Positions 1 through 50,734 of a stretch of DNA of 50,734 nt are shown here, piece after piece; within the stretch, counting starts at the first letter, position 1; each line of letters starts with the position of its first letter. The DNA lies in the NCBI GenBank assembly GCA_028279865.1, contig JANQMV010000048.1, forward strand, positions 1 to 50,734, read 5' to 3'. The notes below the pieces were generated by a model, which was given only the letters and a program-made list of their open reading frames with translations, was not told the DNA's origin and did no database searches. The translations under genes were made by a program, and so were the position numbers. The stretch comes from Candidatus Altimarinota bacterium. GTDB taxonomy: Bacteria > Patescibacteriota > Gracilibacteria > JANQMV01.

Positions 1-3000
1 CCCGGCGTTGTAGCCCAGAGTATTCCCGTCTTTGAAAGGCATGTAGATCAGTGGAGCTGAACCTGTAGGCAGTTCTCCGTTCTGACCGATGTATCTGGGA
101 TTACCCAGACCATCAATAAACTTAAGCCTGTTCGACTCCTGCGAGAAGTCGATGTACTCATCGTCGAAGTAGAGGAAACCGATTTGCCCGTGCCAAAAAT
201 CAACAGGACCGTTAGAACGAGAGCCGATTCCCACATTAGAAGCAGACAAATTTATATTATCGTTTGTATAAACTGTCCACGTAGGATTTGCGAGAACTCA
301 ATCAATATAAATATAACGATTTGCTAAATTTGCAAGATCAATACTTCCCACAACTATTGATTCTTTATTTGCAGAAAAAATTCCAGTTAATGTCATATTT
401 AAAATCAAATTAGCTGAAGAATTGTATCATAAAATTTTCAAATTACCTCAGGCTTGATTTTGAATCACAAATTTTTCTCAAGTTTCTTCAATATTTAAGA
501 TTGCATATGTAGAATCAATTGAAGTTGGTTTAATTTTAAAGGCAAAACTAACAGCTTTACCATCAACAGAGCCAGATAAAGCACTTTTACTCAAATATCC
601 GGTACTTCCATCAAACTCCGCGCTATTTGCCCAGAATTCACTCGGACCACGTGTTCCTTCAAGTGTCCCGTTCACTGAAAAATTTCCGCCCGTTCCCAGA
701 TTTATACCTGCGTCATAGGCGTGCATCGGCAGGTAAATCAAAGGTGCTGAACCGGTGGGCAGTTCTCCGTTTTGACCTAAATAAGACGGTTTGTTTTCGT
801 TTGAATTCCAGAAAGGATTATTAGCCGAAAGGTCTATATAGGAATTATCTATCCAGACATCAGAAACATCTCAATCGAAATATTGGCTGGAAGTCTTGCC
901 GATTTCCCAATCTGTGGCTGCAGACCAATCAATTGTTTGACCTGATAAATATTCAGTGTTTGTTGCTGCAGTATCCTCAATACCATTATAAAATAATTTT
1001 GCATTTGAATTGGAAAGATCAATACTCATAACAACATGATTCCATTGTCCTAACACAGGGCGACTGGCAATTGATCAATCAAAACTATTAATTTGTCCGT
1101 TTGATGAATTCCTCACTATAAGCCGAGGTCCATTGGCAGAATTACCTCAATGAGCAGAGACAATGTACTGAGAACCTCTATTACCCGCTCGCCAACCACT
1201 TAAATACAATAAATTCTCCGACGACTGTTTGTACCAAAAAGAGACGGTAATTTCTTGATTGTCTGTAGCAGGTGACAAAAAAGAAGTCTCAAGATAATCA
1301 CTTGGACCATTTAGACTTGCTGCACTGGCATTATACTGATTTGGTCCGCGTTCTGAAGTAGAGAGTGTTCCATTCACTGTAAAATTACCACCTGTACCCA
1401 AATTCTGTCCTGCAGTCGTTGCATCCTTTAATGGTAGATATATAATTGGACTTAATGATTCTTGATTATCAGCAGGTTTCCCGTCCGCTGTGATAAAAAG
1501 ACGGCGATTGGTTTCTTGGGATAAATCTCTATAATCGTAGTCAAGATAGAAATTTGAAAGCCTTCCCCCGACAAAATATCCATTAGAATATGACAAGCGC
1601 CCTATTGCATGAAGTCAACCGGTAAAATTAATATTATTATTGGAGTAATTTGTCCATCAAAACTGATGGGTCACATCCACATCATTAACATACACCTTAC
1701 GGTTAGCTGAATTGCTAAGATCAAGGCTGCAAAGTACATGATTCCAAGTATCCGGAACAAGTACTTGTCATTGACCGTTTAGAATATTAAAATCAGCTCT
1801 AAACTGTAAAAGTCACCAGTTGGTATATTCAATATGCATTCCAATATTCGGCGTATCATAAGAATTATAAATCGCCTGCGATCCAGTTTTATTGCTGTCC
1901 GGATAGACCCAAGTACTAAAAGTGAAAGTCTTGCTATCCTGATTTCCGATTAAATCACTTGAACGACTTAAATAATCATCCTCTCCGTCAAAGTCCACCG
2001 CTTCAGCGACTTCTGTTGTTTCAACCGGAACTGTTTCTGTCACGCTGACACTGTTTATATCCGCCCAAGTGGTTGAGTCTATCTGAGAATTCAGATTGGT
2101 TACCGCCGTATAAGCTTTATCCGTCGGATAAGCTCAGCGGACTTTGCCATTATCATTGGCAATTGCCAGATAAATGTATTCACCGCCGTTGGCATTTAGT
2201 GCGGCCGGTGCAGAGGAAGTAATCCTAAACCCGGCATTCAAAGGATCAATGTAATCTGTGTTAGTTACTTCTGCAGCAGCACTATTTAGAAGTAAATAAG
2301 GATCATTACCTGTGGTAATACCTCGCGTAGAATCCCAGAGATACCAATCACCTGTAGCATCTGTTCTTTTGATCAGGACAAAAGCCGCTCCATTCGTAAA
2401 ACCCGCATCTATATCCAAATCTGCAGCTGTTCCTGTATAAGAACCGACTTTGGAAACATCTGGAACAGAGGCAAAAAGATAAGCAATAAAATCTTCTGAT
2501 GGATTATTCACTGAAGAATAACTACCTATTTGAAATTGCGTAGCTGTAGGCAGAGTGTCATACCAAGCATTGTCTGTTTGTGCAATATGTGTATCATTTA
2601 AAAACAAATGTTTTTCTATTGGGAGATCTTTATGATAAACCATCCAATGAGTCGATCAATTATCTCTGTTTTTTATAAGCATCATTTCAGGGTTTGCTCC
2701 TAAATCATGTTCAACAATCTTACCGGCGATTCCATTTCCTTTATAGGCGACAATATCCAAAAATTCCGGAGCTCGTTTGAAAAACAACTTTACCGAAGAA
2801 AAACCGGCAGGGGCGTTGATTCATGTTAATGCAGAGTCTGCTCCCACGCTTATACCATCCATGTCAAAAGACAAAAGCGCTGAGCCATTTTGCGTGTTTT
2901 CTGCGGAAGTGTACTCAGTGTATAAATTTTTTCTCACTCCACGTAAGCGGTCAATCAAATGTTGACCATAGTTCGCATTACTGCGTACTCCATTCAACAT

Positions 3001-4362
3001 TAAGTCCGGAGAAAAACCAATTTCTGTAATTGATCTACTCGATTGGGTATGCGAATCTGCGACAGCATTGAACACTTCGCTACTATTCACAGGTTTTTTC
3101 TGTGGTGCGCGAATAGCACAATATATGTGTTTACGACCAAAATCACCTGCATAAGTAAATCCCGTTGGAGTTGGATAACCCTGCTGTCCGCTCCCAACAC
3201 CAATCTCTTCTGCTGCTGAGGTATTTGCCTCCAATCTTGCATCGTCATCATCAAATGAATCTCCCGAATTAAACCAACCTCTTTGCATATCTGTAATAAC
3301 CCAATCAAAATTTGCATCTACACTTTTTGCCAAAAGCCACTGAGGTTCCCATCCTAAATCAACTTCTGGAGTTCATGACATACCGGTAGTTGTAAAATCA
3401 CCACACTGAATTTTTCCATCCGCACTTGGATCATGCGCAAAAAGGTAGGCAACATAAGAACCTCCCGACGCATTCACCGAGGCATGGTCGTCCAATGAAA
3501 AGATAGTTGCGCTATGTAGCTGACTTCACCACCGAACATCTCCTCACCAAAAAGCACCCGAACTTTCCAATTCGGCGTAGTTGGCTCACTGAGTTCGATG
3601 ATAAACAACCCAAGAATCCGCAGAGTCTGTTCTCTTTACAAAAATCATACCCGGCTCAACGCCCAAATTATGCACAATTTCCCTTCCTGCAATTCCATTA
3701 CCTGTATAAGTCACAACATCGAAAAATCCCGGAGCTTCGCGGAATGTCCAAGATGTATAGTCTTCTCAATTATCGTTAACATATCAATATTGATCCTGAA
3801 TGTCGAAACCATTTTCTTTAAACCCAGAAACACCAACGGGTGTTCAGTTAGAAGTGTTTTGTTGCTCCAAATTAGTTAGGTTGCTAGAAAGTGTTTTTAA
3901 TACTCATCTGTCTGTATCAAATATTGCATGTCGAGTGGCATTACTTCTTGACTTGATCCACACCATCCCTCCGTTACTTTCCAAGTCAATTCCATTCTCT
4001 ATGGTCTGTGTGCCACCATTTCCATCGTACAAATAAGTCGAAAAAACATCTTCTACAGTTTCCTCTGAGTTTTCTCCGGCTAACTGCAATTTTCCATGAG
4101 CTACCTCGATCTTGGTGTTATCTTCCAGCGTATAGTCATTTGCTGTAGAAAAATCAACACTCGTCGTGAGAGCTTGGGTTTGAGGAATCAAGCTTGTAGG
4201 TAAGATTATTTGAAAAAATAAAATTGTGGTTAAAATTTTTGAAACAAGCTTAAAAAAGTTCCCTGAACCAAGTCCAAGGGATACTTCTCAGCTATTGTGT
4301 TTCGATACTCTTCGACTTCGCTCAGAGTACAAAACTCTTTTGTTTTGACTGTTTGTGTACAT
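1..4362 (-). CDS. Giant secreted/surface protein with LamG-like (concanavalin-like) repeats and phage-virion-like domains; 3' end beyond window; requires UGA = Gly
   Basis: ORF-track pieces ending at 478, 871, 1147, 1813, 2134, 2821 and 3904 are all in one frame. Scanning the gaps in that frame finds no TAA/TAG from 4362 to 1, only TGA (298, 427, 448, 478, 871, 1075, 1147, 1615, 1657, 1768, 1813, 2134, 2656, 2821, 3373, 3529, 3544, 3586, 3766, 3784, 3844, 3904, 4288; plus-strand left coordinates). ATG at 4360-4362 followed by a hydrophobic segment FFKLVSKILTTILFFQIILPTSL. Motifs: FREAPGFFDVVTYTGNG...HNLGVEPGMIFVKRTDSADSWVVYHR; LGTGGNFTVNGTL repeats. Confidence 0.85.
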
Positions 4363-4541
4363 GGTTTTTTTATTAAAAGTATTCTTACAATTATATTTTA
4401 ACATAAAATAAGCCATGTTGCAAACTTTTTTAACCTTTTTTGCCATTTTTAAAAATATCAAGATTGAGAAAAATTTCCAATTTGCTAGAATGAAACACCC
4501 TGAGTTAATTTTACTTTATAACCTTCAAAATAAATACCAAA

Positions 4542-8114: not shown

Positions 8115-8142
8115 AAACAAACTATAGGTTTATAGGAAGACC

Positions 8143-8172
8143 AAAAACTATCTTTCGTAAGGTAGTTTTTTT
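8143..8172 (+). terminator. Rho-independent terminator after amidase/SpoIID gene
   Basis: aaaactatctttcgtaaggtagttttttta: stem with one mismatch followed by a T-tract. Confidence 0.65.
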
Positions 8173-8259
8173 ATTCGCTCAGACACTTGACAAATAATTA
8201 TTTATGGAATACTATACTTTTCTTGAAAAATTTTTAGCATTTAACCAGAAAAGGCAAAA

Positions 8260-9753: not shown

Positions 9754-9796
9754 AAACACTAAAATCACTTCACTTATTTTTTAAAATTAAAAAAAC

Positions 9797-10564: not shown

Positions 10565-11080
10565 CTAAACTTCGCCTTCCCCCGGATTCGTAGGAGTAAA
10601 GGTGCGCGCAGCCAGCTCTTTATCAACCCAATAAATTCCTCCTTCTCCCGCTAGGTCAAGCTTATCAATAATTCCTTGCGCACTTTCCTCTTCTTCCACT
10701 TGCTCATCAATATACCACTGGTTAAAAGCCTGAAAAGCATAATCATTTTCTTCAATTGCGATTTCATGTAGATTGTTAATTAAGCTTGTCACAAGCTGTT
10801 CATGCTTAAGTGCTTTTTCGTAAACATCGCGCGGAGAGTCAAAATCCGTTGCAGGTTTTTCCATTTCCCGGATTTCCGCTCTACCTCCTCGGCTAAAGAG
10901 GTAGTTAAAAAATTTCATCGCATGAAACATTTCTTCTTGGTATTGGATATACATCCAGTGGGCAAATCCGTCCAAACCTTTCGAACGAAAGTAGGCAGAC
11001 ATTGATAAATACAAATTTGCCGAGTACATTTCAGCTTGAATTTGAGCGTTAACCGCCTCTTCCAGTTTTTTACTAATCAT
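10565..11080 (-). CDS. Ferritin
   Basis: 171 aa; ISKKLEEAVNAQIQAEMYSANLYLSMSAYF..GFAHWMYIQYQEEMFHAMKFFNYL. Stop TAG. Confidence 0.9.
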   Translation of the reverse strand: MISKKLEEAVNAQIQAEMYSANLYLSMSAYFRSKGLDGFAHWMYIQYQEEMFHAMKFFNYLFSRGGRAEIREMEKPATDFDSPRDVYEKALKHEQLVTSLINNLHEIAIEENDYAFQAFNQWYIDEQVEEEESAQGIIDKLDLAGEGGIYWVDKELAARTFTPTNPGEGEV

Positions 11081-13616: not shown

Positions 13617-16600
13617 TTAGAATTCACCAATCGCAGTATAGGTCACCTTTCCTCGGTAGATATCCGCTGGTGTCTGGTAGTCCACATTTAAGTAGTAGTA
13701 AATTGTATCCAGATTACTGTTGGTAGGTTTGTCCAATCACGCATTAGAAATCTGTTGAGGTGCGTTGGTAAAATGGGTCGTTGTGCTAGATGTTCCCGTA
13801 TTTGCTGTGTATGTAAAATTATTCTCTGTTGAAACCCGATCACCTGAAATAGATGAAATAATCTGTCCGGTGTTTGTCGTGCCATCAAGCACCGCTGAAC
13901 CTGTTTGTGTGTTACCTTGCAGAGAAATCATCAGATTGTAACCGTTATGAGCGTTGGTTTTCACTTCTAGGATTGACTTGTCCATTGCTGCTCAGCCTGT
14001 GCCGGACCAGTTCTGACCAAATTGCACGTCAGGGTCGACTGAAAGTAAAACCGAGCCTGAATTGACAGATAATTGAATTGATTCTTCAACATTCACGTTC
14101 AATTCGACTTGCTGATAATGTTGAACCAGAGTGATTTGTCCCGTTCCTGATTCAAGCAATACTCAGAGCTCATCATACAGACTGATTTTGACAGCGTAAG
14201 ATCAACTTTGGGAAGCATTGTGGATTCTAAGGTTATTGATTGCTAATTCTAGCATATCATCGACAGGGACACTGCCTCATGTAATTGTACTTGTGATTGT
14301 TTTGGATTGTCGGTTGATTGAGTCTGAAGAATTGGTGATAGTGCCTGATTGGCTTGTAAATTCAATATCACTATCTGTCATCCAAGGTGAAAATCTGAAC
14401 TCGTCGGCAAAATCAATGACGATGTAATCGTTCACTTCAAGTGCTAGGGCATTAGGATAATAAACCTTGTAATTCGCGTTATTTACTACAGCAGGATTGC
14501 TTACATAGATTGAACCTTTTTCACCGTTGACTGTATCATATATAAAGCTAACTGTGTCTGTACGTTCTTCGTTGCCCGCTGTGTCCAGAGCCCGACTGCG
14601 GATTGTATAGAGGTGTCATTCTGACCAAATTGGTGAATTGTAATACCAGCGGGTAGATTTGCTGGTACTTCCTCCTAAAGTGTTCAGCCAAATTTCTTGT
14701 GTGGCAGTGAAGCCTGTGCCTGTATAAAAGCGCTGAGTAGCTTGCTCATAGATACTAATACGGGTGCCGGCGACTGCTGTATTATCCGTAGATTGACCTA
14801 CAATCAACTCGGCGTGTGTAAGGCTGGCGTTATTTTGCGGATAGAGAATCTTTGAGACGGGAAGTTCGGTATCCAGAGCGGTTATATGTGTTGTACGTGT
14901 GGAGGCGTAAGTCGTGGAATTGCCTGCCGCATCTTTGACTGTATAGCGAAATTTGTAGCAAGTATTGGGTAAACCGGTGTATATGTAGTTTGTGCCGTTT
15001 GCAATTTCTGTAATATTGGCATCTTGAAAACTTGTGAAAGTCTGGTCACAGATTTCATTTGTGACAGTAGCTGTGGCTACTTCAAGGAGATAGTCTGCGT
15101 CATTTGAGGACATGCCTGAGTTAGAGCCTGAGGCGGAGAGGTTGTCTTCTCCACGATTTACGTTGATCGCAATTTGTAGGCTGCCTTGAGTTCCGTTGAG
15201 ATGAGTAATTGATCCTCCGGTGGCTGATTGTGTATCAATGAAATAAGGACCTTGGTGCTGCCATGCTGAATAATTATCGGCTGCATCTTGACTTCTGATG
15301 TGTAAATAGTTACTTGCCCCTTCTTGGAAAATACAAGTCAGAGTTGTTCCTGTTTGAGTCGAGAAAACTGTTGTTCCTGTGGCACTCTGGTTACATTCGG
15401 TTTCATAGGTTTTAATCTGTGTGCTAAGCGATGTGGAAGCAGTCGCTAATGAACTTTGATTCTCATCGGTATCAATAGCAATTATGCGAAAATCGTATGT
15501 TGTTCAGTTTGAACCGGGGACTGACCAAAGGTAATCCACTGTGTTATCGTTTGACCATTGGCTTATTGCGTGAGCGCCGTCGTCGATGATTAGTGCCTCC
15601 GGACTTGCTCGATCTGAAGCCGAATTATCTGTATAAATACCTTGTGGCAGATCGTTTAGTCGTGTAATTGTTTCAATCCCTCCGGTAATGTTGTAACCCA
15701 ACACTGTTTTACCATTGAGGTATTCAACGTTATTAATATTGTTCGTCAGGATTGAAGTATTTCGGCTCGAATTTCCATCAGTTGAGTAATTGTGAGCAGC
15801 GTTGCCATAGCGATTAAATTGAGTTGCTCCATCTCCAGTAGCTACAGTAAAATCTACTCCTTGAGGGCGAACCGTATGCGTCGCGATGTCACGAATTATG
15901 TCCGAACTACCACTTAACCTGTGCCGGAATGCTGTATCATGGAGGCTTCTCTGTGAAGCGTACATTCTTGAAATCTCAGCTGAGCTCAACGCTCTATTGT
16001 AAATCGCTACGTCGTCAAGGAGTCCTTCATAATATCGCTCTCCTGAGTATGGTGCCTGACCTATGGTTAAATCATTGGTCGTATCTAAAGGACCGGCATT
16101 AACCAGATATGACTGATCTAAAATTCAATTAATGTAAATTCTCAAACTTATATCATCATAGGTAAAAGTCACATTTTGCCATACATTTGCTTCAAGATTG
16201 CTGGCAGATAGATAAGCAGTTGCACCATCGAGGGTAAATAATAGGCGGTTATTATTTCTATTTATACCAACATAGTAACCAGTAGAAAGATAACTTCACC
16301 AAAAAGCCTGAGGAGTACCTTTACCTATAATTCCTTTGTTGGAAGAAGCAGGATTTCACCACCCTGGCTCAGACGGATTAATCCAAAAATTAACTGTCAT
16401 GGTGTTACCAACATTTAAAGTCGAATTATTGTTTATTCGTAAATAATCATTAACACCGTCAAAACTTCCTGCTCCGTCAAATTTACCTCCGGCTATTGCA
16501 GACGCTCCGCCACTCCAGGTTCCATGATTTCCATTACTCGAATGATCCGTAGCCTGACCTGAGCTTGTCGAAGGGTCCATTTTCCAGTAACCCACAAGTC

Positions 16601-19600
16601 CGTCATTCAAACTTTCCTGTGCTTCCAAATTCTTTTTCCCTGTTTCGTACATATGCTTGATTGTAGCTGCATCAAGAGCTTCGGCTGTGATAAATGGTTC
16701 GTCTATGAGTCCATCTATAGCGGCAAAACCTGTTCATCTAAAATCTTGCCCTATATATATAGGCAAATTAGAATTAAAGGTTCCAATTGGTTGGTTTGTA
16801 AACTCACTATCTATTTCCCCATCAATATACATTCTAATAACATCTCAATCTCGAGTTAAATTTAAAAAATGCCAGTTTGTATCAGTAATTGACTTATTGC
16901 CAACTGCGCTAAAATAATTTGCACCTCCCCATAGATCAAGATCGGCATTAAAATGTAATTTATTGTTTGCATTAATCTCGAATATCCACTGATTTACAGT
17001 CGTGGCTTCATAACGAGAAATTAGATAATTAGTACCATTTGAATTTCTTTTTATCCATAGTCATAAAGTAAAATCTGTTAAGTCTAAATCTGCGCTATCA
17101 GCTATGCTAAGGTAGTTACTACCATCAAACTTCGCTGCTTTTCCTCTCACACCGGTAGAACTAAAATCAACCCCACCATTATTTATTAAATTATTTGTCT
17201 TCAATGAATTATCTGTAAGTGGAGCGGAGCCATCAAATGTCCACATACCTCTAATATCTCCTACCATTTCCTCCGTTGCATATTCCGAAGTAATATATTT
17301 TACAGAACCATTATTCTCATCTCCTGCTTTCTCTTGGATAATACTTAAACCTTCATTTGTTCCAATATAAAGAGTATTTCATCCATGAATAGAAGTTCAT
17401 TCTGTAATTTCTAAAGAATTGATATGTATTCTATTTCAACCAGTTCATAGGCAAACATTTCTTCAGGCAATTGCATGGGTTTGAAAAGTACAATAGATGT
17501 AGTCTGCCTTTCCTAATGTGATATCAACCGTCGCCTCATGTATATTTCTCTGCAGATAAAAATCATCCTGATCTGTAGCAATTTCATTTGAATAGTAAAG
17601 AGTTCCATCGGAAGCTAAGGCAACATTGTCTGAATCTCTACCTGCATCTGTTACATCAATAACCGTCCCATCTGTCTCATTAATCACACTCACTCCTCCA
17701 TCTGTCGCCACGGCTACATAAGTTTTCCCATCAATTACTGCGGCATGAAGATCATTAATTAAGCCATTTACAATATCTTGCTCATCTATTTTTTGGTAAC
17801 CAGAAGAAGTGTTTCTATCTGCAATGTTTGAATTAAATTCACTATGGTTATTCATTGGATAACTACTTTCTTCTGTTCTTCAGCTCCCAATGTGTTCACT
17901 TGTATCATTTACAAAATCAATTGTAAATAATCCAGAATTTGAACTCGCACTACTTCAGTCATACCAACTTCCTAAGTAAGTTTTACCGTTTAATGATGAG
18001 ATTGTTGAAAAAAGCGTATAATTTGGTCCAATCAAATAAACATCATTTGGAGTCCACCCTCCCGCTTGATCAAATCTCATCCAAATTTCCTGGCTTTCCG
18101 CATCGTAAATATATAGATTTGTATCCGTACCTACCAAAATTGCAATTTCAGGAAAATCTCGTGTACACTTTTCTTCACCTGAGGCTTGGTAACCATTTGG
18201 ACATCTGGTCACAGAAGAAGCTTCCGTATACCATGATTTTGTATTATCACTTCTCCACGAATTATTAACTGAATCCTTGGCTGTATCATAAATAAACACG
18301 TCATTAATCGTTTCTGCGATCAGCTGCTGTTCAATTTTCTCTGGAATTTGATATTCACTTTCACTTGTTTCTTTTTGTTCAATTTTAAATTTTGGAGCTG
18401 TTGCTTCGTAGGTCTGCCGTACCTCTAAGCCTGAGAGAGCTCGACTGTAAATTGCAAATTCGTCAAGAGAACCATTAAAATACCTATTACTATTACCTCC
18501 ATTACCGATACTTGGATAAGTGAAACTGGCAGTAGGAATTTCCACATTTTGTTTTGTATCCGTAAGCTCACCATTTAGATAAATATAAAAATTTGAATGA
18601 GTGCTATCTACAGATTCTGTAACCACAGTTAAATTAAACCATTCGTCAATCCCAACATCATCTAAATTTGCATTAAAATATAGTGGTGTTGGTGATTGCA
18701 AATAAAGTGCTAATGCATTTCCTGCACCATGCCACATCCAGTAACCACCACTGGACAAATTGTTTCCTGTAAAAGCGTTCCAATTTCCTCCTAGTGTTTT
18801 TTGCCAAACACTAAAAGTATGGCTCTCACTTGTTGTAAACTCTGTTGAATTAATTGTCACATATTCATCCACCCCATCAAACTCCAAAGCCTTCCCCACC
18901 TGCCCGTCATGATAAGACAAAGCACCACTCATATTTGTCAAAGTTCCATTATTCCCATTTCCAGAATAATCAACCGTAACAGAAGTCCCCACATCATCAA
19001 ATTTCCAATAACCCACTAAGGAATCTTTTTTATAATTTTCCTTAATTTCTTTGTTAGAGAGAGCCCGTTTGTACATTTTAACTTCATCAATTCCGCCAGA
19101 AAAATACCTCGGATACCTCGTTGGAGCAGTATAATCATAAGGATTTCCGAACAAAACAGGGTCATTTGTTTCCGTATTAAAATTACCATTCCACGTTACA
19201 CTTCCTGGTAATTCTTCTCCGTTTACAAAAGCTTTGATCAGACCTCCTTCACGTTTCATCACAATGTTGTACCATTGATTAATTTCAAAAGAAACCGGCC
19301 AACCAAAGTATCCATTCGGAGGCGAATAATTATAATATAAACCTAAAGAGTTCTTCGTTGTTGCTATTTTTCTAATAACTCAATTCGCAGGCCATGAAAT
19401 TAATTCAGCTTGAGCAATTAGAGCTGCTTCCGAGTTAACATTCATCCAAAAATTAACTGTAAAATCTCCCGTACCAAAATCAAAGTCTGAACTATTCGGA
19501 ATACTTACATAATCATTAATTCCATCAAAACCTCCCGCTTGTCTGCGTTGTCCATCAGCATTCGCAGTTAAGCCTCCGTTCGCTGTACCATGATTTCATT

Positions 19601-20540
19601 TTCACGAACTATCCATAAAATCTCCATCCATTTTCCAATGCCCCACAAGTCCTGTTTCATCAAGCTCGATCGCTGCATCAGGGTAAAAAGCTCATTCGTC
19701 TCCATTATCTTTAATTTCAACACCAACCTGATTATTCATCTCATCGTTAGACAAACTAATCGTTGGTTGACGAGGGGTATCTGCATAAGGTGAACTTGGC
19801 GGAGTAAAGTTTCCTGTCCAACGAGCTAACCCTTTGGTCACCCTAACTTCGTCAAAATAGCCTTGAAAATCTCCTGCACCGAGCTCTCTTCCTGCTGTGC
19901 CAATTCTTAGGGGATTTGTTGTTTGAAAATTATCATAACAAGTTGTATCACTGGCAATTTGGTAACCATCAGCAAAGAAACGAAGAGTATTTCATTCTCT
20001 TGCAAGTGCAAAATGCGACCATTTGTTTAAATAATCAGCGAAATTCCCCCCTGTTACAACACAAGTACCATTGTATGATGTCCAATTTAGCTGGGAACTA
20101 AAAAGCCAATACCAATTCAAATCTGAATATGCGCCATTGTGAGTGGACATAAATCGCTTTGCACGACCATTATCATTTGCGTTGCTTGTTGGATAAGCCC
20201 AAAAATCAATCGTAAAATCATCCGAACCAAATTGCCAGTCTTGAGAATTTGGAATTGTTAAATAATCACTATCTCCGTCGAAATATATCGCTGAACTACC
20301 AAACTTGCTTTGTGATGTGGAATGTCGGACATTTCCATTCACCGTAATATCGTGTTCATTTGAAGAAGAGTCTGTGAAAGTTGTACTTCAGTTTGTTGTG
20401 TCTGATTGAATTAAAAGCTTTGTATAAACATCCGATCATGCTGCTTTTAGTTGAGAAAAATTAAGCTGTCAAAAAAATTGAAGTACCATCAGTCACACCA
20501 ACGTTTTTGAAAATAATTTTTTAGTTTTTTTAGTAAACAT
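13617..20540 (-). CDS. Giant multi-LamG surface protein, 2307 aa; requires UGA = Gly
   Basis: ATG at 20538-20540 and TAA at 13617-13619. All nine ORF-track pieces on this strand share one frame. Triplet scan of the gaps finds no TAA/TAG and 29 in-frame TGA. LamG units such as GLVGHWKMDGDFMDSS[U]K[U]NHGTANGG, DTTN[U]STTFTDSSSNEH, LRIYIN[U]ILDQS, SLVGYWKFDDVGTSVTVDYSGNGNNGT. N-terminal signal peptide-like MFTKKTKKLFSKTLV[U]LMVLQFF[U]QLNF. Confidence 0.9.
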
Positions 20541-20705
20541 GGTTTTTGTTTTTTTTATTTTCCACCTGATATTATGAAAATTACATTGTTTCATTTTACC
20601 AAATTAATATATGTTTTGCAATATTTTTATCTTTTTGCAAAACAGATCAAAAACTTGATTCTCAATACATTTTTCAGTAACCTGAGGGTGTTTTAAAAAA
20701 TAAAA

Positions 20706-24918: not shown

Positions 24919-26934
24919 ATGGGCTTTTTATTTGGATTGCTACCGCTTTTTATCCTCATATTGCTGATTTACTATGGTTTTAGTAAGTACAAACTACATT
25001 TCAATCAAGAAGTTGTGATTCCCAAAAAAATCGTTGCCTTGCTTTTGCTGATAATTTTAGGATTCAATCTTTTTCTTTTTGAAGCAAATCCCGGAATTGG
25101 CTGGAGCTTGTTTTTTACAATGCTCTTTGTTTTTTTCCTGACAATGTTTCCGCAGGAAAAAAGAAATTTCTTTGTCTACCTTCTCACATCCACAGGTATA
25201 ATCTCAGGTATAGCGCTCGCAGGAAGGGCAAATGATTTTATGGTGGAGACAAATCTTTCAATCCTGTTTTTTAGTATAATTTTCCTTTTAATACTCTATA
25301 GTGTTGAAGATGCTGCAAAACATATTTTTGCTTTTATTCGAGGAGGTTGGGCCTTGTTTTTTGGATTTTTTAGACAAATTGGAAACCTGTTTTCTTTTGC
25401 ACAAAAAAACAGCGATAAAAACAGGCTTAATATCCTGAGAGTTTTAAAAACAAGTGCAATTACTGTTTTAGTTATTGTTATTTTTGTTTCACTGCTTAGC
25501 AAAGCTGACCCTGTCTTTGCTCAAATTATCGAAGATTTTTTTGGCAATATTGAGAAAAGATTCATCTTTTCTTTGGTTCTCATCGCTTTAGCCACTTTAG
25601 GTTGCACTATCTCGATCAACGCCCAAAAACCAATTAATACAAAGCTCTCATTCCTAAATTATTATGATTTCATTATTCCGCTCTCTGTTCTAACAACTCT
25701 GCTTGCGGTCTTCTTAGCAATTCAGTTCACTTATTTGTTTGGAGGACAAGCTGACTTATCAGCATTTGACCTAACATTCTCAGAATACGTACGCAAAGGC
25801 TTCATCGAGCTTCTTATTGCTACATTTTTTGGAATTCTGATTTCTGTCATTATTTTACTCAAACAAGATCATCTCAAGGCAAAAGAAAATAAAATTTTAA
25901 AACTTGTTCACTTTGTTTTACTGTTAGAGTTATTTTTGATGCTTGTTTCAGCATTTAAGAGAGACATCATCTACATCGACTCTTATGGACTTACACGCAT
26001 CCGGATTATCGGTGGAATGTTCTTGGTTTGGCTAGCTGCTTTATTTGTCATTATCATTGCGGCAAACTTTACAAAAAAAATAAGTAAGCAAACAATTCTA
26101 ATTAGTTCTGTTAGTTTAGGTTTTGTTTTGTTTGTAATTTTAAATACAGTTAATCTCGATCAATTAATTGTAGACTACAACGCAAAACATTTCCCTGAGA
26201 AACAAGATATTTTTTACAATAGTTTACTTTCAGCAGATGCAGTCAAAGGCTGGGAAGAAGGAATTGTAACCTCGCAAAAAATTTATAATCAATTTGCTGA
26301 AAAACCAACATTAACCGAAGATGAAAAGAAAATTTTCGCAGGAGCTTTGCTTGCTGTTAAAGCAATCACCGAAAAACGAGACAATCTTTTGAACCATTAT
26401 GGGACAATTGAAGAAATGAAGGACAACGACTACGCCGACCTTCCTCGAGGTTTTCCTGATAAAATCAGATATAATCGCAAATGGCAAGCACTCAATTTTG
26501 GAGAAAAACACGCTTTTGAATATATGAAAAAAAACAGCAGTGTTTTTGAAGGAACGTTAGCTTGTCTGAACAAAAATATTGATTTGTACCAAATCAAAAA
26601 CTCAATCAATCTCAATGATCAAACCAATGAGAGGCTGCATGAATATGAATATCCTCTCATACAACGTTTTTATTATTACAAAGAATTGCATTCAATCAAG
26701 CGCTCAATTTTTGCATATTTTCTGGAGACTTACTATGGAGATGAGAGAGACGGAAAATACTATCGAGACTTTGATTTTGATTATGCTGAAGACTTGAAAC
26801 CGATTTTGGATGAACTAAAAACAAAGCTAAGTATAAATCCAACGGACTTAAATGATTATCAAAAACGTGATGCTTATTATAAGGAGTTTGAGGAACACTT
26901 GATTAAATTAGTTCGGGTTGAAAAATGTGAATAA
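24919..26934 (+). CDS. DUF4173/DUF4153-like membrane protein
   Basis: 671 aa, multiple TM segments; SLLSKADPVFAQIIEDF; YGLTRIRIIGGMFLVWLA. Stop TAA. Confidence 0.6.
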   Translation: MGFLFGLLPLFILILLIYYGFSKYKLHFNQEVVIPKKIVALLLLIILGFNLFLFEANPGIGWSLFFTMLFVFFLTMFPQEKRNFFVYLLTSTGIISGIALAGRANDFMVETNLSILFFSIIFLLILYSVEDAAKHIFAFIRGGWALFFGFFRQIGNLFSFAQKNSDKNRLNILRVLKTSAITVLVIVIFVSLLSKADPVFAQIIEDFFGNIEKRFIFSLVLIALATLGCTISINAQKPINTKLSFLNYYDFIIPLSVLTTLLAVFLAIQFTYLFGGQADLSAFDLTFSEYVRKGFIELLIATFFGILISVIILLKQDHLKAKENKILKLVHFVLLLELFLMLVSAFKRDIIYIDSYGLTRIRIIGGMFLVWLAALFVIIIAANFTKKISKQTILISSVSLGFVLFVILNTVNLDQLIVDYNAKHFPEKQDIFYNSLLSADAVKGWEEGIVTSQKIYNQFAEKPTLTEDEKKIFAGALLAVKAITEKRDNLLNHYGTIEEMKDNDYADLPRGFPDKIRYNRKWQALNFGEKHAFEYMKKNSSVFEGTLACLNKNIDLYQIKNSINLNDQTNERLHEYEYPLIQRFYYYKELHSIKRSIFAYFLETYYGDERDGKYYRDFDFDYAEDLKPILDELKTKLSINPTDLNDYQKRDAYYKEFEEHLIKLVRVEKCE

Positions 26935-34407: not shown

Positions 34408-34422
34408 TAACTAACAATTATT

Positions 34423-34637
34423 GTCATTCCAGAATTTTCCGTGCAGGGTCTCCGTATCCCGCTCAACTAAATTTATTAAAGTGCGGGAGAAGGAAAAATA
34501 TCTGGAATCTATCGAAGAAATAATTTGTCACAAACCTCAAGAAGCTAATTTGGTATAGTGAAGTTTTAGGGTATTAGATCCCGGATATTATGGCTTTTAT
34601 ATTTTTTTATTAAAGCGGACATAATTCCGGGATGACA
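34423..34637. repeat. Degenerate gtcattcc...ccgggatgaca-type repeat
   Basis: gtcattccagaattttccgtgcagggtctccg ... agatcccggatatt ... ttccgggatgaca; resembles the elements at 33745 and 43840. Confidence 0.45.
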
Positions 34638-41930: not shown

Positions 41931-41992
41931 ACTTAATACGTAGAGATACCCAATAACATTGCTATATTGAAAACTGCATTATTAAAGTAAAA

Positions 41993-42655: not shown

Positions 42656-42709
42656 CTTCCCTGAAACATTTGGAGCAACTCAGAGAGATTGCTCCAGCGA
42701 AAGAACTTT

Positions 42710-42802
42710 CATCCTGAACGAATCCCGTTTGCGGGAGTAGTGAAGGATCTCACTCACTGATTTCCAGAGATCCTTCGCCTGAGTACCTCCTCGTCAGGAT
42801 GA
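42710..42802. repeat. Palindromic intergenic repeat (catcctga...tcaggatg type)
   Basis: catcctgaacgaatcccgtttgcgggagtagtgaaggatctc ... agagatccttcgcctgagtacctcctcgtcaggatg; inverted ends; related element at 50377-50486. Confidence 0.65.
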
Positions 42803-42834
42803 AAAACAAATTTACAAACTTTACACCTTAAACT

Positions 42835-43809
42835 TTGATCTCCCTAAAATTAAAATCTCCAGCCAAAATCAACCTTAATCTTCAAATTTTAGATAAGCGT
42901 GAAGATGGATATCACAATCTAAAGTCAGAATTTTGTACAATAAATTTGTTCGACAAAATAACACTAACTAAAATCCCCGAAGGAATTCAAATGGTCACTT
43001 CGGGCAAATACAGAATTCCGAATAATCGGGATAATTTAGTGTATCAGGTTGCGGAAAAATTACGTTCACATGCCAAAGGTAAAGTTGGCGTAAAAATTGA
43101 AATTGATAAACAAATTCCCCTTTTTGCAGGACTTGGTGGAGGGAGTAGTAATGCGGCAACGGTACTTAAGGGTTTGATTGAATTATGGAATTTGGATTTG
43201 TCTTTGGAAAAACAAGTTGAGATAGGCAAAAAAATTGGTGCTGATGTCCCGTTCTTTTTGTATGGTGCTCATTGTTTGGTGGAAGGAATTGGTGAAAAAG
43301 TTACGCCATTGGAAGATAAAATCCAGGAAAAATATATCGTGGTTGTACAGCTGCCGTATATCAAAATATCAACCCCTTGGGCGTATAATCAATGGGATAA
43401 ATTATCAGTCCCTCTTAGCAAGGGGGAAAGGCTCGCAGAGTCAGGGGGTTCAAAACCGCAAGGAATGTCTAGTAATTCAAAAATCTCTAACCAAAAGGAT
43501 ATCACTCAGGAGAGTAATAAGAAAACCATTAAAGTTCAAGTCAGAGACATTGAACCAGCATTTAAAACTACTAACTATCCACTACCAACTAACCACTCCG
43601 CCAACGATTTCGAAAAAGTCATCTTCCCGCACTTCCCCGATTTAGCCGACTTAAAAGAATCTTTCTTGCAGGCGGGTGCGAGTAAGGCTTGTATGACTGG
43701 TTCGGGTTCGGCGGTTTATGGGATTTTTGGAGAGAAGGAAGTTGCAGAGGGGTGTTTGGGAGAGATTGGAGGTGAGTGTGAGTTTGTGTGGTTAGGAGAA
43801 CTAATTTAG
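42835..43809 (+). CDS. ispE: 4-diphosphocytidyl-2-C-methyl-D-erythritol kinase with a repeat-derived insertion
   Basis: KSPAKINLNLQILDKREDGYHNL, PLFAGLGGGSSNAATVLKGL, QAGASKACMTGSGSAVYGIF; insertion SVPLSKGERLAESGGSKPQ...TTNYPLPTNHSA before NDFEKV. Stop TAG, TTG start. Confidence 0.9.
   Translation: MISLKLKSPAKINLNLQILDKREDGYHNLKSEFCTINLFDKITLTKIPEGIQMVTSGKYRIPNNRDNLVYQVAEKLRSHAKGKVGVKIEIDKQIPLFAGLGGGSSNAATVLKGLIELWNLDLSLEKQVEIGKKIGADVPFFLYGAHCLVEGIGEKVTPLEDKIQEKYIVVVQLPYIKISTPWAYNQWDKLSVPLSKGERLAESGGSKPQGMSSNSKISNQKDITQESNKKTIKVQVRDIEPAFKTTNYPLPTNHSANDFEKVIFPHFPDLADLKESFLQAGASKACMTGSGSAVYGIFGEKEVAEGCLGEIGGECEFVWLGELI
43408..43451. repeat. Repeat-like insert within ispE coding sequence
   Basis: agtccctcttagcaagggggaaaggctcgcagagtcagggggtt, in-frame in a non-conserved loop of IspE. 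Confidence 0.5.
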
Positions 43810-43839
43810 TTCCTTCTTTTGTCACTTTCTCTTCATTAT

Positions 43840-43954
43840 GTCATTCCCGCGAAGGCGGGAATCTCTCTTTTGGGAGAGTAGTTCGAACAACCTGAATATC
43901 CGCTTTTTTGAATTAACAGTAAGAAACAGATCCCGCATCAAGTGCGGGATGACA
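43840..43954. repeat. Intergenic palindromic repeat (gtcattcccgcgaaggcgggaatc...gatcccgcatcaagtgcgggatgaca)
   Basis: Two short hairpins inside outer gtcattcccgc/gcgggatgac inverted ends; like 33745-33847. Confidence 0.75.
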
Positions 43955-44023
43955 ATAAAAAAAATGATTAACTCAAATAGATTCAATTTACAAAAATTGA
44001 ATCAACACCATTCTTTCTACTTT

Positions 44024-44854
44024 TTATATTTGTGGAAAATTAAGAGATTTAGATATTACATCAATTTCATTTCCGGCATCATTATTTTGAGAAGATACTT
44101 TTTTAAAAGCTACGTTCTTCGCATTCAATCTATTGGAAGCGATTCTTTCTGAAGCCGGAACATCTTTTGAGAAAATGTAATAATCTTCTCAAATACACAA
44201 ATTTTTATTTCCATTAACAATTGCATTAAAACGCTCTTCATCCTCTTTTGTCTCAAATTGATATCAGTTTTTTAAAAACCAAAGCATGACATTTAGCTGT
44301 CCCACATCAGCTCGAATCGTAATATCCTTTCATTTTATTCCCGATAATTTTGCTAAAAATGACTCAGCAGATTTTAAGAACAATGTTCCAATTCACTGTC
44401 CCTGATTTTGTAAACATGGTTTAATCCAGCGATGATCTAAGTCATAAGTCAAATCAAATGGAAGAAAAATTAATTCTCAGACTTCACAATTTTCAGGTCC
44501 TCTGTTGGAATCTTGCAATTTAAAACCTAATTTTTCACTAGGATTTCAAGAACCTCATTTCCTCTTAAAAAAAGATTTTGTAACAACATATTTAAGATTC
44601 ATAACATCATTTAAAATTACATAATCAGTTTTTTCTCCATTTCGCTCTTTCGTCTTAACGGCATTTACTTCATTTTCAATATTCAAATACCTGCTAGCTA
44701 GTTGGTTAGCAGTATTAATAAGAGAGGTAGCAAATTCTTCTTTATTACCAATATCCAATATTTCTTTTTCAACTAAAACCGGACTTCAGAAAATCCTTGA
44801 TTTATACAAATCAAGGATTTCGTTGAATCGATACCGTGGATTAATATTTTCCAT
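44024..44854 (-). CDS. GNAT-family N-acetyltransferase-like protein, 276 aa; requires UGA = Gly
   Basis: ATG at 44852-44854, TAA at 44024-44026. Full-frame scan shows 8 TGA (44189, 44264, 44330, 44393, 44477, 44546, 44555, 44786) and no TAA/TAG. Motifs QNQGQ[U]IGTLFLKSAESF and ADVGQLNVMLWFLKN[U]YQFETKEDEERF match GNAT motif A and the C-terminal N..a..FL.knGF pattern. Confidence 0.85.
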
Positions 44855-44929
44855 GAAGGTAAACTTAACAATCCGGAGAATTATATCATTTCAAGCACAA
44901 AAAAACAACTTAGACGCACACACAACAAA

Positions 44930-44957
44930 GAAGGCGACGTCACGTGACGTCGCCTTC
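44930..44957. repeat. 28-bp perfect palindrome between recJ and the recoded GNAT gene (possible terminator)
   Basis: gaaggcgacgtcacgtgacgtcgccttc is fully self-complementary; lies 5 nt past the recJ stop on the minus strand and is followed there by tttgttgtgtgtg. Confidence 0.9.
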
Positions 44958-44961
44958 GGTC

Positions 44962-46632: not shown

Positions 46633-46787
46633 TTAAAAAATATTTAAAAAGAAGGTTTCTTCAAGGAGAATAATTTCAGCTAAATAAAGGAAGACGCTAC
46701 ATAGGCAGCTGTACACAAGTCTTGCTTCAAATTTAATAAGGCTTACAGGCAGAATCTAAACTATTTCTAAGGTCTTGTCCAGACTTT

Positions 46788-49115
46788 TTAAAAATCATCC
46801 TGCTCAGCAACAATTTGCATAAAATCATAAAGCAAGTCGGCAAACTCTCCCTTGCTTAAGATCGTTTCAAAATTAGAGCCTCCTCCAATTAGCCCCAGAC
46901 TTCTGCCTTTGTAAATATATGGAACGTACCATTTGATTCGCTCACGATAAGGAGGATTCCAAACCGGAATCTCAAAAGTCTCGCACAAAATCTTCAGAGC
47001 TTCAGCCAAAGTAATGCCTCTCTCGGGAAGAAAGAACTCTCCTAGAGCAATAATATCTTGATCCACGGCATAATTTACTAATTTTCCATAATTTTGCTGA
47101 TCCAAATCTTTAAAAACACTTTCTGCTTCAGATTCTTCTATTGCATCTTTGGTTTTTTTAAGATTCCGTTCTTTTTCCACAAAAATTTTCGCATTGAGAA
47201 CAGCTTCAAGCGAATCAATACGTGTCATTTCATTTTCCGGATAAAAATACTTATTCTGCTTTTTCAAGATCTCTTTGTCTACGAGCACACTAATTTGCTT
47301 TTCATAAAGATGATATTTGATATCGCCAAAAAGTTCTTGAAAAGCCGGAAGCGAGTATTCCCCTTTTTTGTCTTCGTTTTCAAAACCTAAATATTGAAAT
47401 GTTTTGAGTGTTTCAATCACTTCATTGATATTTTTTTCGTATGCACCTTCCAAGTCATCGTAAATAAAACGAAAATATTTCTTACCGTTTAAAGCAACCA
47501 GACTCGTTCTTTTACGAGTTTGATTAAAGTCATCTCCTTGATAACTATACGTATACGCATAACCTTCTAAACCATCAAGTACAATATCTTCATGGCGATT
47601 GATGAGTTTAAAATTGGGATTACTATAACGTTTTTGCTTAATATCAGCTTTAGCAAGCTCTTCTATACTTAGATCAAGAGAATCTTTTTCCAAGTGCTCT
47701 TCCTTTAATTGGAAAATTTGCTCAAATGATTCCGGATTATAAATATTCACAATAACTTCTTCCTCTTGACTATCCCACACCGGAGCAATATAAAAATCTC
47801 CACCAGCGCTCAAGCGTACAGCCGGTTTAGTTTGAGAAAAATGTCTTTGATAAGGCTCGGTATTATTTTCAATTTCCTTAAACATCAGTGTTTCTAAAAG
47901 AGCTTCTATTTCAACTTGAGTCTCTTCAAAATCAGTTAAAGAAAGTTGATAACTATAGCTTAAAAGGACATTTTCAAATGTAAAAATGACATAGTAATTT
48001 CTGTAATTTACAAAATCATACGTAATCTGAATTGCTTCTTGCCCATAGAGTTCAATTGACTCGCGTTCGTAGTTTGTGTAATAGGTTTTGTACTTTTCGA
48101 TTCTTTCAAGGAGATAATCTAAAAATTCTTCGGTAATTTCATAGGGCAAAATCTCAGCACTAAGCTGTAAACTCAAGTCTTCTCCCTTTACTTGTTTGCT
48201 TAACAATAAGTTTGTGTCGTTAAGAAAGGCTATTTCCCATTCATTTGGCACAGCAATTTCATAAAAAGGAAAAATATCTGAAGAGTATTTTTCTGTATTC
48301 TCGGTCTGGTATTTTTTCTCTAAAAGTTTGTTGAGTAAATTTACCGCTGTAACATCTTGCTTTGCTTCTTTTGAAATATTATCAGTTATCCATTTTTCAA
48401 CTTCCTCCAAAGGAATGATATAGCCCAAAGTACTTATGTTTGATCGAATATAAGAAGGCACTCCAATGAATCGACCTTGTGAATCTTTGGCGGTACCACC
48501 CGAATTACCAACACTAATCGTCGCATCTGTTTTGAGGTGCGTAATAGACTCTCTCTCTTCATAACCACTCACTTGCCCTTCGGTGCTTGTGAGAGTTTTT
48601 CCTCCAATCCCGGGAAAACCATCTACCACGACCTTTTCTCCAATTGAAGGTAAAGAATTATCTTGGTAATTTAAATAAGGAAAATCAGGAATATCATTCC
48701 CGAAAACGTCTTTTGGATTAATTTTCAAAATCGCCATATCGGTACTTTTCTCTTTGGCAACCAATGCTGCTGTGTAGAGGCAGTCAGGTTTTTCTTGCGT
48801 GTCGCTCACTGTGCAAACCGCAAAAGCTTCATAGGGCTCATCATTAAAATCAATTACCACATGATTATTCGTCAGAATCAGCCCATCTTTTGAAATCAGT
48901 GTTCCTGAGGCAAGAGATTTTTCAATAACATGATTATTTGCAGTTAGGTTAAAAGAAATAATTTTCACCGTTTCAGAAATAATCGTGTCTCTTTGTGCAA
49001 AAGAAGTTGGTAAGCTTAACTTAGTCAGACAAATAACTAGAAAAAAAATGGCTGTTTTTCGCATATTTTTTTGGGTTATTGTTTTAGTAATATAATTAAT
49101 AAAAATCTTCGTCAT
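46788..49115 (-). CDS. Secreted trypsin-like serine protease (S1C/HtrA-like) with C-terminal SLH-like region
   Basis: 775 aa; SLASGTLISKDGLILTNNHVV, DMAILKI, VSVGNSGGTAKDSQGRFIGVPSY; signal peptide at MRKTAIFFLVICLTKLSLPTSFAQ; C-terminal FLPERGITLAEALKIL. Stop TAA. Confidence 0.82.
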   Translation of the reverse strand: MTKIFINYITKTITQKNMRKTAIFFLVICLTKLSLPTSFAQRDTIISETVKIISFNLTANNHVIEKSLASGTLISKDGLILTNNHVVIDFNDEPYEAFAVCTVSDTQEKPDCLYTAALVAKEKSTDMAILKINPKDVFGNDIPDFPYLNYQDNSLPSIGEKVVVDGFPGIGGKTLTSTEGQVSGYEERESITHLKTDATISVGNSGGTAKDSQGRFIGVPSYIRSNISTLGYIIPLEEVEKWITDNISKEAKQDVTAVNLLNKLLEKKYQTENTEKYSSDIFPFYEIAVPNEWEIAFLNDTNLLLSKQVKGEDLSLQLSAEILPYEITEEFLDYLLERIEKYKTYYTNYERESIELYGQEAIQITYDFVNYRNYYVIFTFENVLLSYSYQLSLTDFEETQVEIEALLETLMFKEIENNTEPYQRHFSQTKPAVRLSAGGDFYIAPVWDSQEEEVIVNIYNPESFEQIFQLKEEHLEKDSLDLSIEELAKADIKQKRYSNPNFKLINRHEDIVLDGLEGYAYTYSYQGDDFNQTRKRTSLVALNGKKYFRFIYDDLEGAYEKNINEVIETLKTFQYLGFENEDKKGEYSLPAFQELFGDIKYHLYEKQISVLVDKEILKKQNKYFYPENEMTRIDSLEAVLNAKIFVEKERNLKKTKDAIEESEAESVFKDLDQQNYGKLVNYAVDQDIIALGEFFLPERGITLAEALKILCETFEIPVWNPPYRERIKWYVPYIYKGRSLGLIGGGSNFETILSKGEFADLLYDFMQIVAEQDDF

Positions 49116-49187
49116 CCTGAGCGGAACTTATTGTGAAGATTACTCTGACTTTTGTGCAAGTTACCCGTCCCGCATTGCAGGAGTGAC
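49111..49187. repeat. Degenerate gtcatcctgagcgg-type repeat
   Basis: gtcatcctgagcggaacttattgtgaagat ... ccgtcccgcattgcaggagtgac; left end matches that of 50377-50486. Confidence 0.45.
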
Positions 49188-49190
49188 TGC

Positions 49191-50288
49191 CTATTCTGCT
49201 TTCGGTCTCTCCAAACTTGGTAAATCAACATCAATCTTTTTTTTACCTTCAGTAATCTTAATTACATCTTTATCAATTTTGTTAAACTCTTTACTGGCAT
49301 TTGTATAAGCATTCACTGTTGTTCCCAAATGGTTACCCAGCTTGCGTAAATTATCTTGGTAAGCATTTAAATGATTCGCCAAAACGCCAACCCTTTTTTT
49401 GATCTCAACAGCGTCTTTTTCTATCTTTAAGGCATTTAAAGCATGAAGGACTGTTTGTAAATATGCAAAAAATGTCATCGGAGAAACAATAATCACATGC
49501 TTTGTAAAAGCATATTCAATCAAATCTTTTGAATTCACTTCCATTGCACCGATTTTGTGATTTAAGAGGTTATAGAATAATCCATCTGCAGGAATAAACA
49601 TAAAGGCAAAATCCGTAGTACCTTCATCAGGGCGCACATATTTACTTGTTTCATCAATCCTCTTTTTCAGATCGGACTTAAATGTTTTTTCTAACGTTTG
49701 CCTTTCCGTGTCATTGGTTGACTCCATCATTCTATTGTAATTCTCCAGCGTAAACTTGGCATCAATCGGAATCACCATATCTTTGACAAAAATTGCCGCA
49801 TCTACGATTTCTCCGTTTTTAAATCCATACTGCATTTTAAACTGACCCGGTGCCAAATAATTCGAAAGCATGTTTTCCAAGAAAAACTCTCCCAAAACTC
49901 CACGCTGTTTTGGATTTTTGAGAATATTTTCGAGGCTGCGCATTTGTTCTGTAAAACCTAAAACCTGCTTATTTGTTTCGCCAATTTTGGTTAAAGCTTC
50001 TGCGACACTTTTACTCCTTTCTCCCATGTCATTAACCATTTTTGAGGTCGAGGCAAATTGTTTCTGCAAGCTTTCATTTAGTGTTTGGTTACTCTTGCCA
50101 AGTTGTTCATTCACTGTTTTGCCAAGTTCATTTGTTCCTTTTTGAATTTCGAATAAATGCTCTTGAAGCATTTTGAGTGACTGATCGTCTTGTTTGTTCG
50201 CCTTTAACTCATCAAATTTTGTTTTGATAAAATAAAGAACAGCAGCAAAACCGGCAATAATAAGGATTACGTAAAAAAAATCGTTCAC
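49191..50288 (-). CDS. rmuC: DNA recombination protein RmuC
   Basis: 365 aa; KNPKQRGVLGEFFLENMLSNYLAPGQFKMQYGFKNGEIVDAAI, IPIDAKFTLENY, FAFMFIPADGLFYNLL. Stop TAG. Confidence 0.93.
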   Translation of the reverse strand: MNDFFYVILIIAGFAAVLYFIKTKFDELKANKQDDQSLKMLQEHLFEIQKGTNELGKTVNEQLGKSNQTLNESLQKQFASTSKMVNDMGERSKSVAEALTKIGETNKQVLGFTEQMRSLENILKNPKQRGVLGEFFLENMLSNYLAPGQFKMQYGFKNGEIVDAAIFVKDMVIPIDAKFTLENYNRMMESTNDTERQTLEKTFKSDLKKRIDETSKYVRPDEGTTDFAFMFIPADGLFYNLLNHKIGAMEVNSKDLIEYAFTKHVIIVSPMTFFAYLQTVLHALNALKIEKDAVEIKKRVGVLANHLNAYQDNLRKLGNHLGTTVNAYTNASKEFNKIDKDVIKITEGKKKIDVDLPSLERPKAE

Positions 50289-50376
50289 AGCTTTTGGGAT
50301 TTAAAGGATTTTTAGTAAGCTTAAATATTCTAAAGATTTTCAAATTTTTCGCAATTAAAAATAAAGACCAGTTGCC

Positions 50377-50486
50377 GTCATCCTGAGCGGAGCTTACGTA
50401 GTCGAAGGATCTTTCGGAAGTTTTGTTATGACTTATTCCTTCGAGAGATCCTTCGACTGCATAATATTTATTTCGCTCAGGATGAC
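50377..50486. repeat. Palindromic intergenic repeat (gtcatcctgagcgg...tcgctcaggatgac)
   Basis: Outer inverted repeat gtcatcctgagcg/cgctcaggatgac with inner gaaggatctttcgg/tcgagagatccttcgac. Confidence 0.8.
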
Positions 50487-50645
50487 GATCTTTCATCACT
50501 CTCTAGTACTTTAAGATGCCGACAAAAAAAACAAAAAAACATCCAGCACCAAACATCTAACACCAACTTTCCTAAACAATAAAAACACCACTTTTACCCT
50601 ACAGAATAAGACAAAGTCGCATTCTCACCCCTCAGAATTTTGCGT

Positions 50646-50682
50646 CAAAAAACCCTCGGCATTTCTGCAGGGCTTTTTGGTT
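50646..50682. terminator. Intrinsic terminator
   Basis: aaaaaaccctcggcatttctgcagggctttttggttttt: CCCT..AGGG stem flanked by A/T tracts. Confidence 0.55.
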
Positions 50683-50734
50683 TTTGTTTTCGGTATTTGT
50701 TAACTAAATCTTTAGAAACTCTAAATTAATCGAG

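Follow-up and report, generated by a model that had tools for sequence, protein, structure and literature searches.

The 50,734-nucleotide stretch of DNA analysed here (the window, contig C52 of the Candidatus Altimarinota genome G000) contains three genes with many in-frame UGA codons, standing among genes that have none. We propose that these genes reflect an independent and unfinished reassignment of UGA from stop to glycine in a lineage related to the Peregrinibacteria, outside the known groups that use genetic code 25 of the National Center for Biotechnology Information (NCBI). We put the probability of this reading at about 0.75. It rests on the distribution of UGA among genes, on the glycine residues of relatives at UGA positions, on the tRNA and release factor genes of G000, and on its position beside a family with the standard code.

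The three genes carry 23, 29 and 8 in-frame UGA codons and have no internal TAA or TAG. The remaining 28 genes, with 11,371 codons and 646 GGN codons, have no in-frame UGA and end in TAA (14 genes) or TAG (14 genes), and none ends in TGA. The three genes hold 376 of the 1022 glycine codons, and the probability that all 60 UGA codons would be confined to them by chance is below 1e-25. The initial annotation had described the same restriction with the same UGA counts, and its absence of TGA stops is confirmed; its tally of 27 UGA-free genes with 14 TAA and 13 TAG stops falls short by one gene and one TAG. Both complete recoded genes end in TAA, as it had stated. The features of the window are as follows.

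1-4515, minus strand: UGA-rich surface protein with a DUF7483 and three Laminin_G_3 domains (23 UGA, 120 GGN), continuing past the low end of the window, with the ATG at or close to codon 52 as its likely start codon
4542-13545, plus strand except for 10565-11080 on the minus strand: UGA-free genes separating the first and second recoded genes (amidase/SpoIID, HD domain and others)
13617-20594, minus strand: UGA-rich giant secreted protein of 2325 amino acids with five Laminin_G_3 domains (29 UGA, 185 GGN), stop codon TAA
20706-43809, both strands: UGA-free genes separating the second and third recoded genes
43409-43559, plus strand: repeat elements, with copies of 42 and 63 bp on contig C1 (identity 93% and 89%, respectively) and further copies elsewhere in G000
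44024-44854, minus strand: third UGA gene, 276 amino acids (8 UGA, 11 GGN), stop codon TAA
44962-50288, minus strand: UGA-free genes past the third recoded gene, namely a gene of 556 amino acids, a trypsin-like gene at 46788-49115 and a gene at 49191-50288

The signal-peptide region of the giant secreted protein contains three UGA codons (..TLVgLMVLQFFgQLNFSQLKAAg, UGA shown as g). The frame of the third gene is free of TAA and TAG up to 44968; its product looks acyltransferase-like by eye, and a Pfam scan gave no match. Two further frames with 8 UGA each, 42828-43550 and 26357-26902 on the minus strand, were rejected as recoded genes and are shadow frames of UGA-free genes.

The division seen in the window extends to the genome, which comprises 1.48 Mb in 59 contigs and is 95.8% complete with a contamination estimate of 0.16%. 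Genome counts come from 754 kb (51%), consisting of the window and two sets of 20 stretches, with genes called by a self-trained codon model. Among 502 called genes (coding segments), 431 have no UGA, compared with 272±9.8 expected from an even spread over glycine codons, and 51 (~10%) have at least two. When only the 200 genes with at least 20 glycines are considered, 157 are UGA-free and 61.5 are expected. A two-class fit, in which 80% of genes have a UGA rate of about zero and the rest use UGA for a mean of 12% of glycines, is better than a beta-binomial fit (log-likelihood -353.7 versus -361.1). The two code-25 control genomes are unimodal: G128, with 6.5% UGA, has 71 zero-UGA genes where 61±5.5 are expected and gains nothing from two classes, and G041, with 28% UGA, has 20 such genes out of 193 and a spread described by a one-hump beta-binomial. 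The bimodality suggested by the initial annotation is therefore found in G000 and in neither control.

UGA is essentially unused as a stop codon in G000. In the sample, at most 9 of 384 UGA-free genes end in TGA, mostly doubtful cases with a TGA a few codons ahead of TAA or TAG, and in the window 0 of 28 do. The sister standard-code genome G048 (family f10; L307-L322) likewise has at most 4 TGA stops in 228 genes, despite having release factor 2 (RF2) and 41% GC. This suggests that the loss of UGA as a stop probably came before the gain of the tRNA described below, and that the precondition of codon capture was already there in the sister lineage.

Conserved positions point to glycine as the meaning of UGA. 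At the five UGA columns of PilT, 127 of 145 relatives' residues (88%) are glycine, and at the UGA columns of PilB, 65 of 100, with a background of 6-7% in both cases; no tryptophan or cysteine is found among relatives at these columns. The opening glycine of the PilT Walker A motif is itself a UGA (VT[UGA]PTGSGK). When the DUF7483 protein of the window and its own paralogues on L260 and L271 were compared, the partner residue was glycine (GGN or UGA) at 40 of 78 UGA positions, against a background of 8.6%. These observations suggest that UGA would be decoded as glycine in this genome.

A candidate for the decoding tRNA is encoded at C1:4485-4561. This tRNA-Gly(UCA) is 74 nt long without CCA and has the only UCA anticodon among 37 tRNAs. 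It contains G1:C72, C2:G71, G3:C70 and U73, matching the glycine identity rule of Shulgina and Eddy (PMC8629427). The contig C1 is only 7.3 kb long and starts within a dispersed repeat. The repeats at 43409-43559 of the window have 19 matches in contigs of G000 and none in samples of three other genomes, and the sharing of repeats among C1, the window and other contigs ties C1 to this genome. A promoter scan upstream of the tRNA gave no match on the plus strand and found only the terminator-like hairpin of the upstream glnA. Further dispersed repeats common to contigs of G000 lie at 34422-34545 and 44928-44957 of the window, and some dispersed repeats lie inside coding frames, including an ileS fragment on C1.

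G000 encodes three proteins with an RF-1 domain, namely RF1, RF2 and an ArfB-like protein. The RF2 gene (prfB, C59:6984-8006) scores 464 bits against a cut-off of 370, contains the SPF and GGQ motifs, and matches every column that is at least 90% conserved in 110 homologues. The idea that this RF2 has lost its UGA-recognition motif was rejected; the unusual Q in RQTSF is frequent among relatives in the candidate phyla radiation. RF2 and tRNA-Gly(UCA) are thus present together, a stranger case than the initial annotation had supposed. The prfB leader of G000 (L033:2380-2560(-), C59) reads ..AAGGAC TAT GTT TGA C TTT GCT AAA. Its counterpart in f6, f13 and f19 relatives, ..GGGAC TAT CTT TGA C, reads as the classical programmed frameshift site. 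The change from CTT to GTT in G000 makes ATG TTT GAC, an in-frame ATG past most of the leader, and RF2 may be made either by frameshifting or from this new ATG, which would skip the leader UGA. We note that the RF2 gene of an f6 genome (G017:C3:546800-547813, L161) has one TGA within the matched stretch, probably its frameshift site.

Within our sample of the class, RF2 and tRNA-Gly(UCA) occur together only in G000. The tRNA pattern was searched in 353 genomes of the class and matched only in families f11, f14, f21 and f22 and in G000, with no match in ~235 other genomes. RF2 was lacking in 41 of 41 tRNA-UCA genomes searched from these four families, and most of their RF1 genes have in-frame TGA. 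In the other families sampled RF2 is present, except in one small and two incomplete genomes. A literature search over open-licence papers gave no description of a genome that has both RF2 and tRNA-Gly(UCA), which is not proof of absence.

Phylogeny and gene order connect G000 to the standard-code Peregrinibacteria family f10, to which the RF2 locus of Ca. Peregrinibacteria CG_4_10_14_0_2_um_filter_43_11 belongs (the leader sequence is the same in L055 and L149). In the RpoB tree G000 stands beside f10 with support of 97/97, and branches with 97/94 and 98/95 separate it from the code-25 clades. The PilB tree also joins G000 and f10 (support 99), with code-25 rows elsewhere, and PilT shares 58-62% identity with most copies from f10, which have no TGA, and 49-52% with those of code-25 families. 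The prfB and pilB genes are divergent and 2.4-3.9 kb apart in G000 and in the f10 genomes G009, G020, G030, G040 and G048; in G000 the five-UGA pilB and the RF2 gene are both on contig C59, at a distance of 2.9 kb. The tree placement together with the prfB synteny indicates that the UGA-bearing PilB is native and that its UGAs arose in place. On the evidence of these trees, G000 is placed outside the Gracilibacteria and Absconditabacteria code-25 clades. Family f10 has RF2, and at least two of its members have the frameshift site. It resembles G000 in that its one sampled genome hardly uses UGA as a stop; unlike G000, it has no tRNA-Gly(UCA) and no UGA in its PilB and PilT orthologues.

Genes carrying UGA belong largely to pilus, secretion, adhesion and envelope operons, in agreement with the association with function and secretion that had been raised as worth examining. 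They include the type IV pilus ATPases PilB and PilT with five UGA each, a cyclic nucleotide-binding (cNMP-binding) protein, pilins like those of type IV secretion systems (T4SS) and a TraG/VirB4-like ATPase. Surface proteins with LamG, DUF7483, PKD, cohesin and dockerin domains form another part, as do MacB/FtsX and HlyD export components and peptidoglycan-binding proteins. TrkA, TrkH and an M23 peptidase appear to belong to the set as well, the names coming from reading the sequences. All four GspE/PilB-like ATPases carry UGA (2-5 each), the single clear carrier among ATP-binding cassette (ABC) ATPases is the copy in the MacB operon, and one of two PilC copies carries UGA. Neighbouring UGA genes on the same strand form 12 pairs, against 4.7±2.0 by chance, and a hydrophobic segment is more frequent in UGA genes (odds ratio 3.0, p 4e-4, with a crude predictor). 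Judging from family names, UGA seems to be missing from growth genes and found in conditional functions.

UGA is also unevenly placed within these genes. It makes up 35.5% of glycine codons in codons 1-50 and 12.4% later (odds ratio 3.9, p 2e-11), counted from ATG starts whose assignment is uncertain; the code-25 controls have no such bias (odds ratios 1.1 and 0.95). The early UGAs are often within signal peptides, and one is in a lipobox (LS[UGA]C).

These results can be arranged into a proposed sequence of events. UGA nearly disappeared as a stop codon, as seen in G000 and in one sister genome. A tRNA-Gly with the anticodon UCA was gained, and the product of this gene would be charged with glycine and read UGA. 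GGN codons changed to UGA in situ within a restricted group of operons that serve type IV pili, T4SS-like pili, export, adhesion and the cell wall. RF2 was kept, and at UGA the insertion of glycine probably competes with termination. Such competition, or a scarce tRNA, would make UGA costly, so that it would be excluded from housekeeping genes and tolerated in conditionally expressed envelope genes. The preference for gene starts may arise because an abortive product is cheapest there, or because a gate is most effective there. The restriction may stem from passive selection against a costly codon or from active gating of the bldA type. Among the explanations offered by the initial annotation, an early stage of reassignment is supported by the presence of RF2 and tRNA-Gly(UCA) in a lineage sister to a standard-code family, and so, as far as the pattern goes, is selection against UGA in core genes.

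Several points weigh against this proposal. The bases that follow UGA show no difference from those that follow GGA, and strong termination contexts are not avoided, which gives no support to active competition by RF2. The altered prfB leader (CTT to GTT) leaves the level of RF2 and its response to UGA uncertain. Gene starts and calls come from an in-house script, and some UGA counts preceded the real start. Finally, all evidence comes from a single genome, half of which was sampled. PyrD (L258), L260:3426 and L045 were rejected as UGA genes, with UGAs upstream of the likely start, and are not counted as evidence.

A more specific version of unfinished reassignment, which we consider possible though doubtful, is that UGA-Gly is a regulatory codon comparable to UUA under bldA, with an active cause of the restriction instead of a passive one. 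The ratio of tRNA-Gly(UCA) to RF2 would gate the UGA genes, and housekeeping genes that are always needed would avoid UGA. In its fullest form, competition between the tRNA and RF2 at the early UGAs of pilus, secretion and adhesion operons would act as a genome-wide translational gate, with attachment only when the tRNA wins. The prfB leader UGA, which is in frame and followed by CTT TGC TAA, might add a loop: read as glycine it would give VGLC and a stop, hence less RF2 and more UGA decoding, and bistability might follow. The concentration of UGA in pilus, secretion, adhesion and cell-wall operons with ~86% of genes UGA-free, its presence in all four GspE/PilB-like ATPases and PilT and in a single clear ABC ATPase from the MacB operon, and its bias to gene starts, as for TTA in streptomycetes (PMC4255298), would all fit such a gate. 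On the other side, one PilC copy is UGA-free, the candidate ATG start of prfB skips its UGA, and passive selection against costly codons would yield the same pattern.

Import of the UGA genes and the tRNA from fully recoded Gracilibacteria or Absconditabacteria, the third explanation that had been offered, is improbable for the genome as a whole. Both code-25 groups belong to the same class, and an attempted tree of TrkA found no relative among 39 other genomes of the class. The tRNA is 70% identical to that of f11 and 67% identical to the genome's own tRNA-Gly(GCC), so that its origin is undecided by similarity. One candidate for a foreign gene is L267:2457-4778(-) (G000:C35), whose 774 codons include 35 UGA and 4 GGN and whose product is secreted and beta-helix-like; UGA makes up 90% of its glycine codons, well above every other gene, and it may be imported from a recoded lineage or be an extreme case. 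Against import stand the retention of RF2 and the many UGA operons scattered over many contigs, and for PilB and PilT the trees refute it, as does the conserved synteny of PilB. Recent acquisition thus fails for these two genes and is possible for some surface genes.

It is slightly less probable still that G000 has a mature code 25 and that UGA is just rare and uneven owing to the length, composition or evolutionary rate of its genes. Genes with UGA do have a greater length (median 388 versus 239 codons) and a slightly lower GC content at third codon positions, as this explanation would have it, but the excess of zero-UGA genes persists among those with at least 20 glycines, and G128 is near expectation at 6.5% UGA. 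Moreover, in 80 UGA-free genes that are at most 67% identical to f10 the scored segments contain 1704 GGN but not a single UGA, whereas PilB and PilT, 65% and 60% identical to f10, have five each. Since equally diverged genes lack UGA, the rate of evolution fails to explain the split. The presence of RF2 also argues against a mature code.

An artefact might be suspected from the 59 contigs and the short tRNA contig: the assembly could be chimeric, the bin mixed, or the UGA genes decayed by an accumulation of stops. This is very unlikely given that UGA genes are flanked by UGA-free genes on many contigs, RF2 lies close to the UGA-containing PilB, C1 and the window share repeats, contamination is estimated as low, frames of 1505 and 2325 codons contain UGA without any TAA or TAG, and UGA falls on conserved glycines.

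G000 can be compared with several known systems. It departs from code 11, the standard code with RF2, in which UGA is a terminator. Pyrrolysine UAG and selenocysteine UGA are cases in which a stop codon serves as a sense codon in a limited gene set with the release factor present. In contrast to them, G000 uses a standard amino acid with no dedicated synthetase or recoding element known, has dozens of such genes with up to 35 UGA each, and does not use UGA as its usual stop. Code 25 of Absconditabacteria (SR1) and Gracilibacteria (BD1-5) shares with G000 the tRNA-Gly(UCA) identity elements, UGA on conserved glycines and the lack of UGA stops; G000 differs in keeping RF2, in limiting UGA to a minority of operons and in its lineage. 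Two genomes labelled Gracilibacteria that have RF2 were reported to lack such a tRNA and to use UGA as a stop (PMC8629427). A recoded gene set is also found in phages with suppressor tRNAs, one of them a patescibacterial phage with tRNA-Gly(TCA); in large phages whose hosts use the standard code, suppressor tRNAs have been proposed to control the timing of late genes (PMC13059738). The set of G000, by contrast, is chromosomal and concerns pili, secretion and adhesion. A further parallel is UUA and bldA of Streptomyces, likewise a rare codon read by one tRNA, kept outside growth genes, found in conditional functions and biased to gene starts (PMC2000904, PMC4255298); the TTA start bias is seen in streptomycetes and not in other actinomycetes (PMC4255298). 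UUA is, however, an ordinary sense codon with no rival release factor, and regulation by tRNA supply is shown there and conjectured in G000.

How a codon changes its meaning without damage to the proteome is an old question, and living intermediates of reassignment are scarce. G000 combines a stop codon close to extinction with a new tRNA, a release factor that was kept and a recoded set that is still partial. Together with its standard-code sister family it would allow actual tests of codon capture and ambiguous decoding. The case implies an additional origin of UGA as glycine beyond the two known clades. It is worth noting that annotation with the standard code would cut about one tenth of the genes of such a genome, mainly those for pili and surface proteins. 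A gated regulon, if the UGA set proves to be one, would represent a new kind of translational control.

Some further observations concern neighbouring subjects. The tRNA-Gly(UCA) of f11 (74 nt) and that of f14 (76 nt) are 58% alike, and their RpoB clades are separate, which suggests that UGA as glycine may have arisen more than once even among the two known groups. ARAGORN assigns an odd tRNA of G000 (L039:7178-7255(-), G000:C53:17178-17254) an anticodon of four bases (ttaa), with the anticodon loop enlarged, and this tRNA scores above the Rfam tRNA cut-off. Inside the LamG protein at 13617-20594, around codons 1341-1351, lies a short stretch PSTSSGQA, which resembles the repeat-derived inserts of other metagenome proteins.

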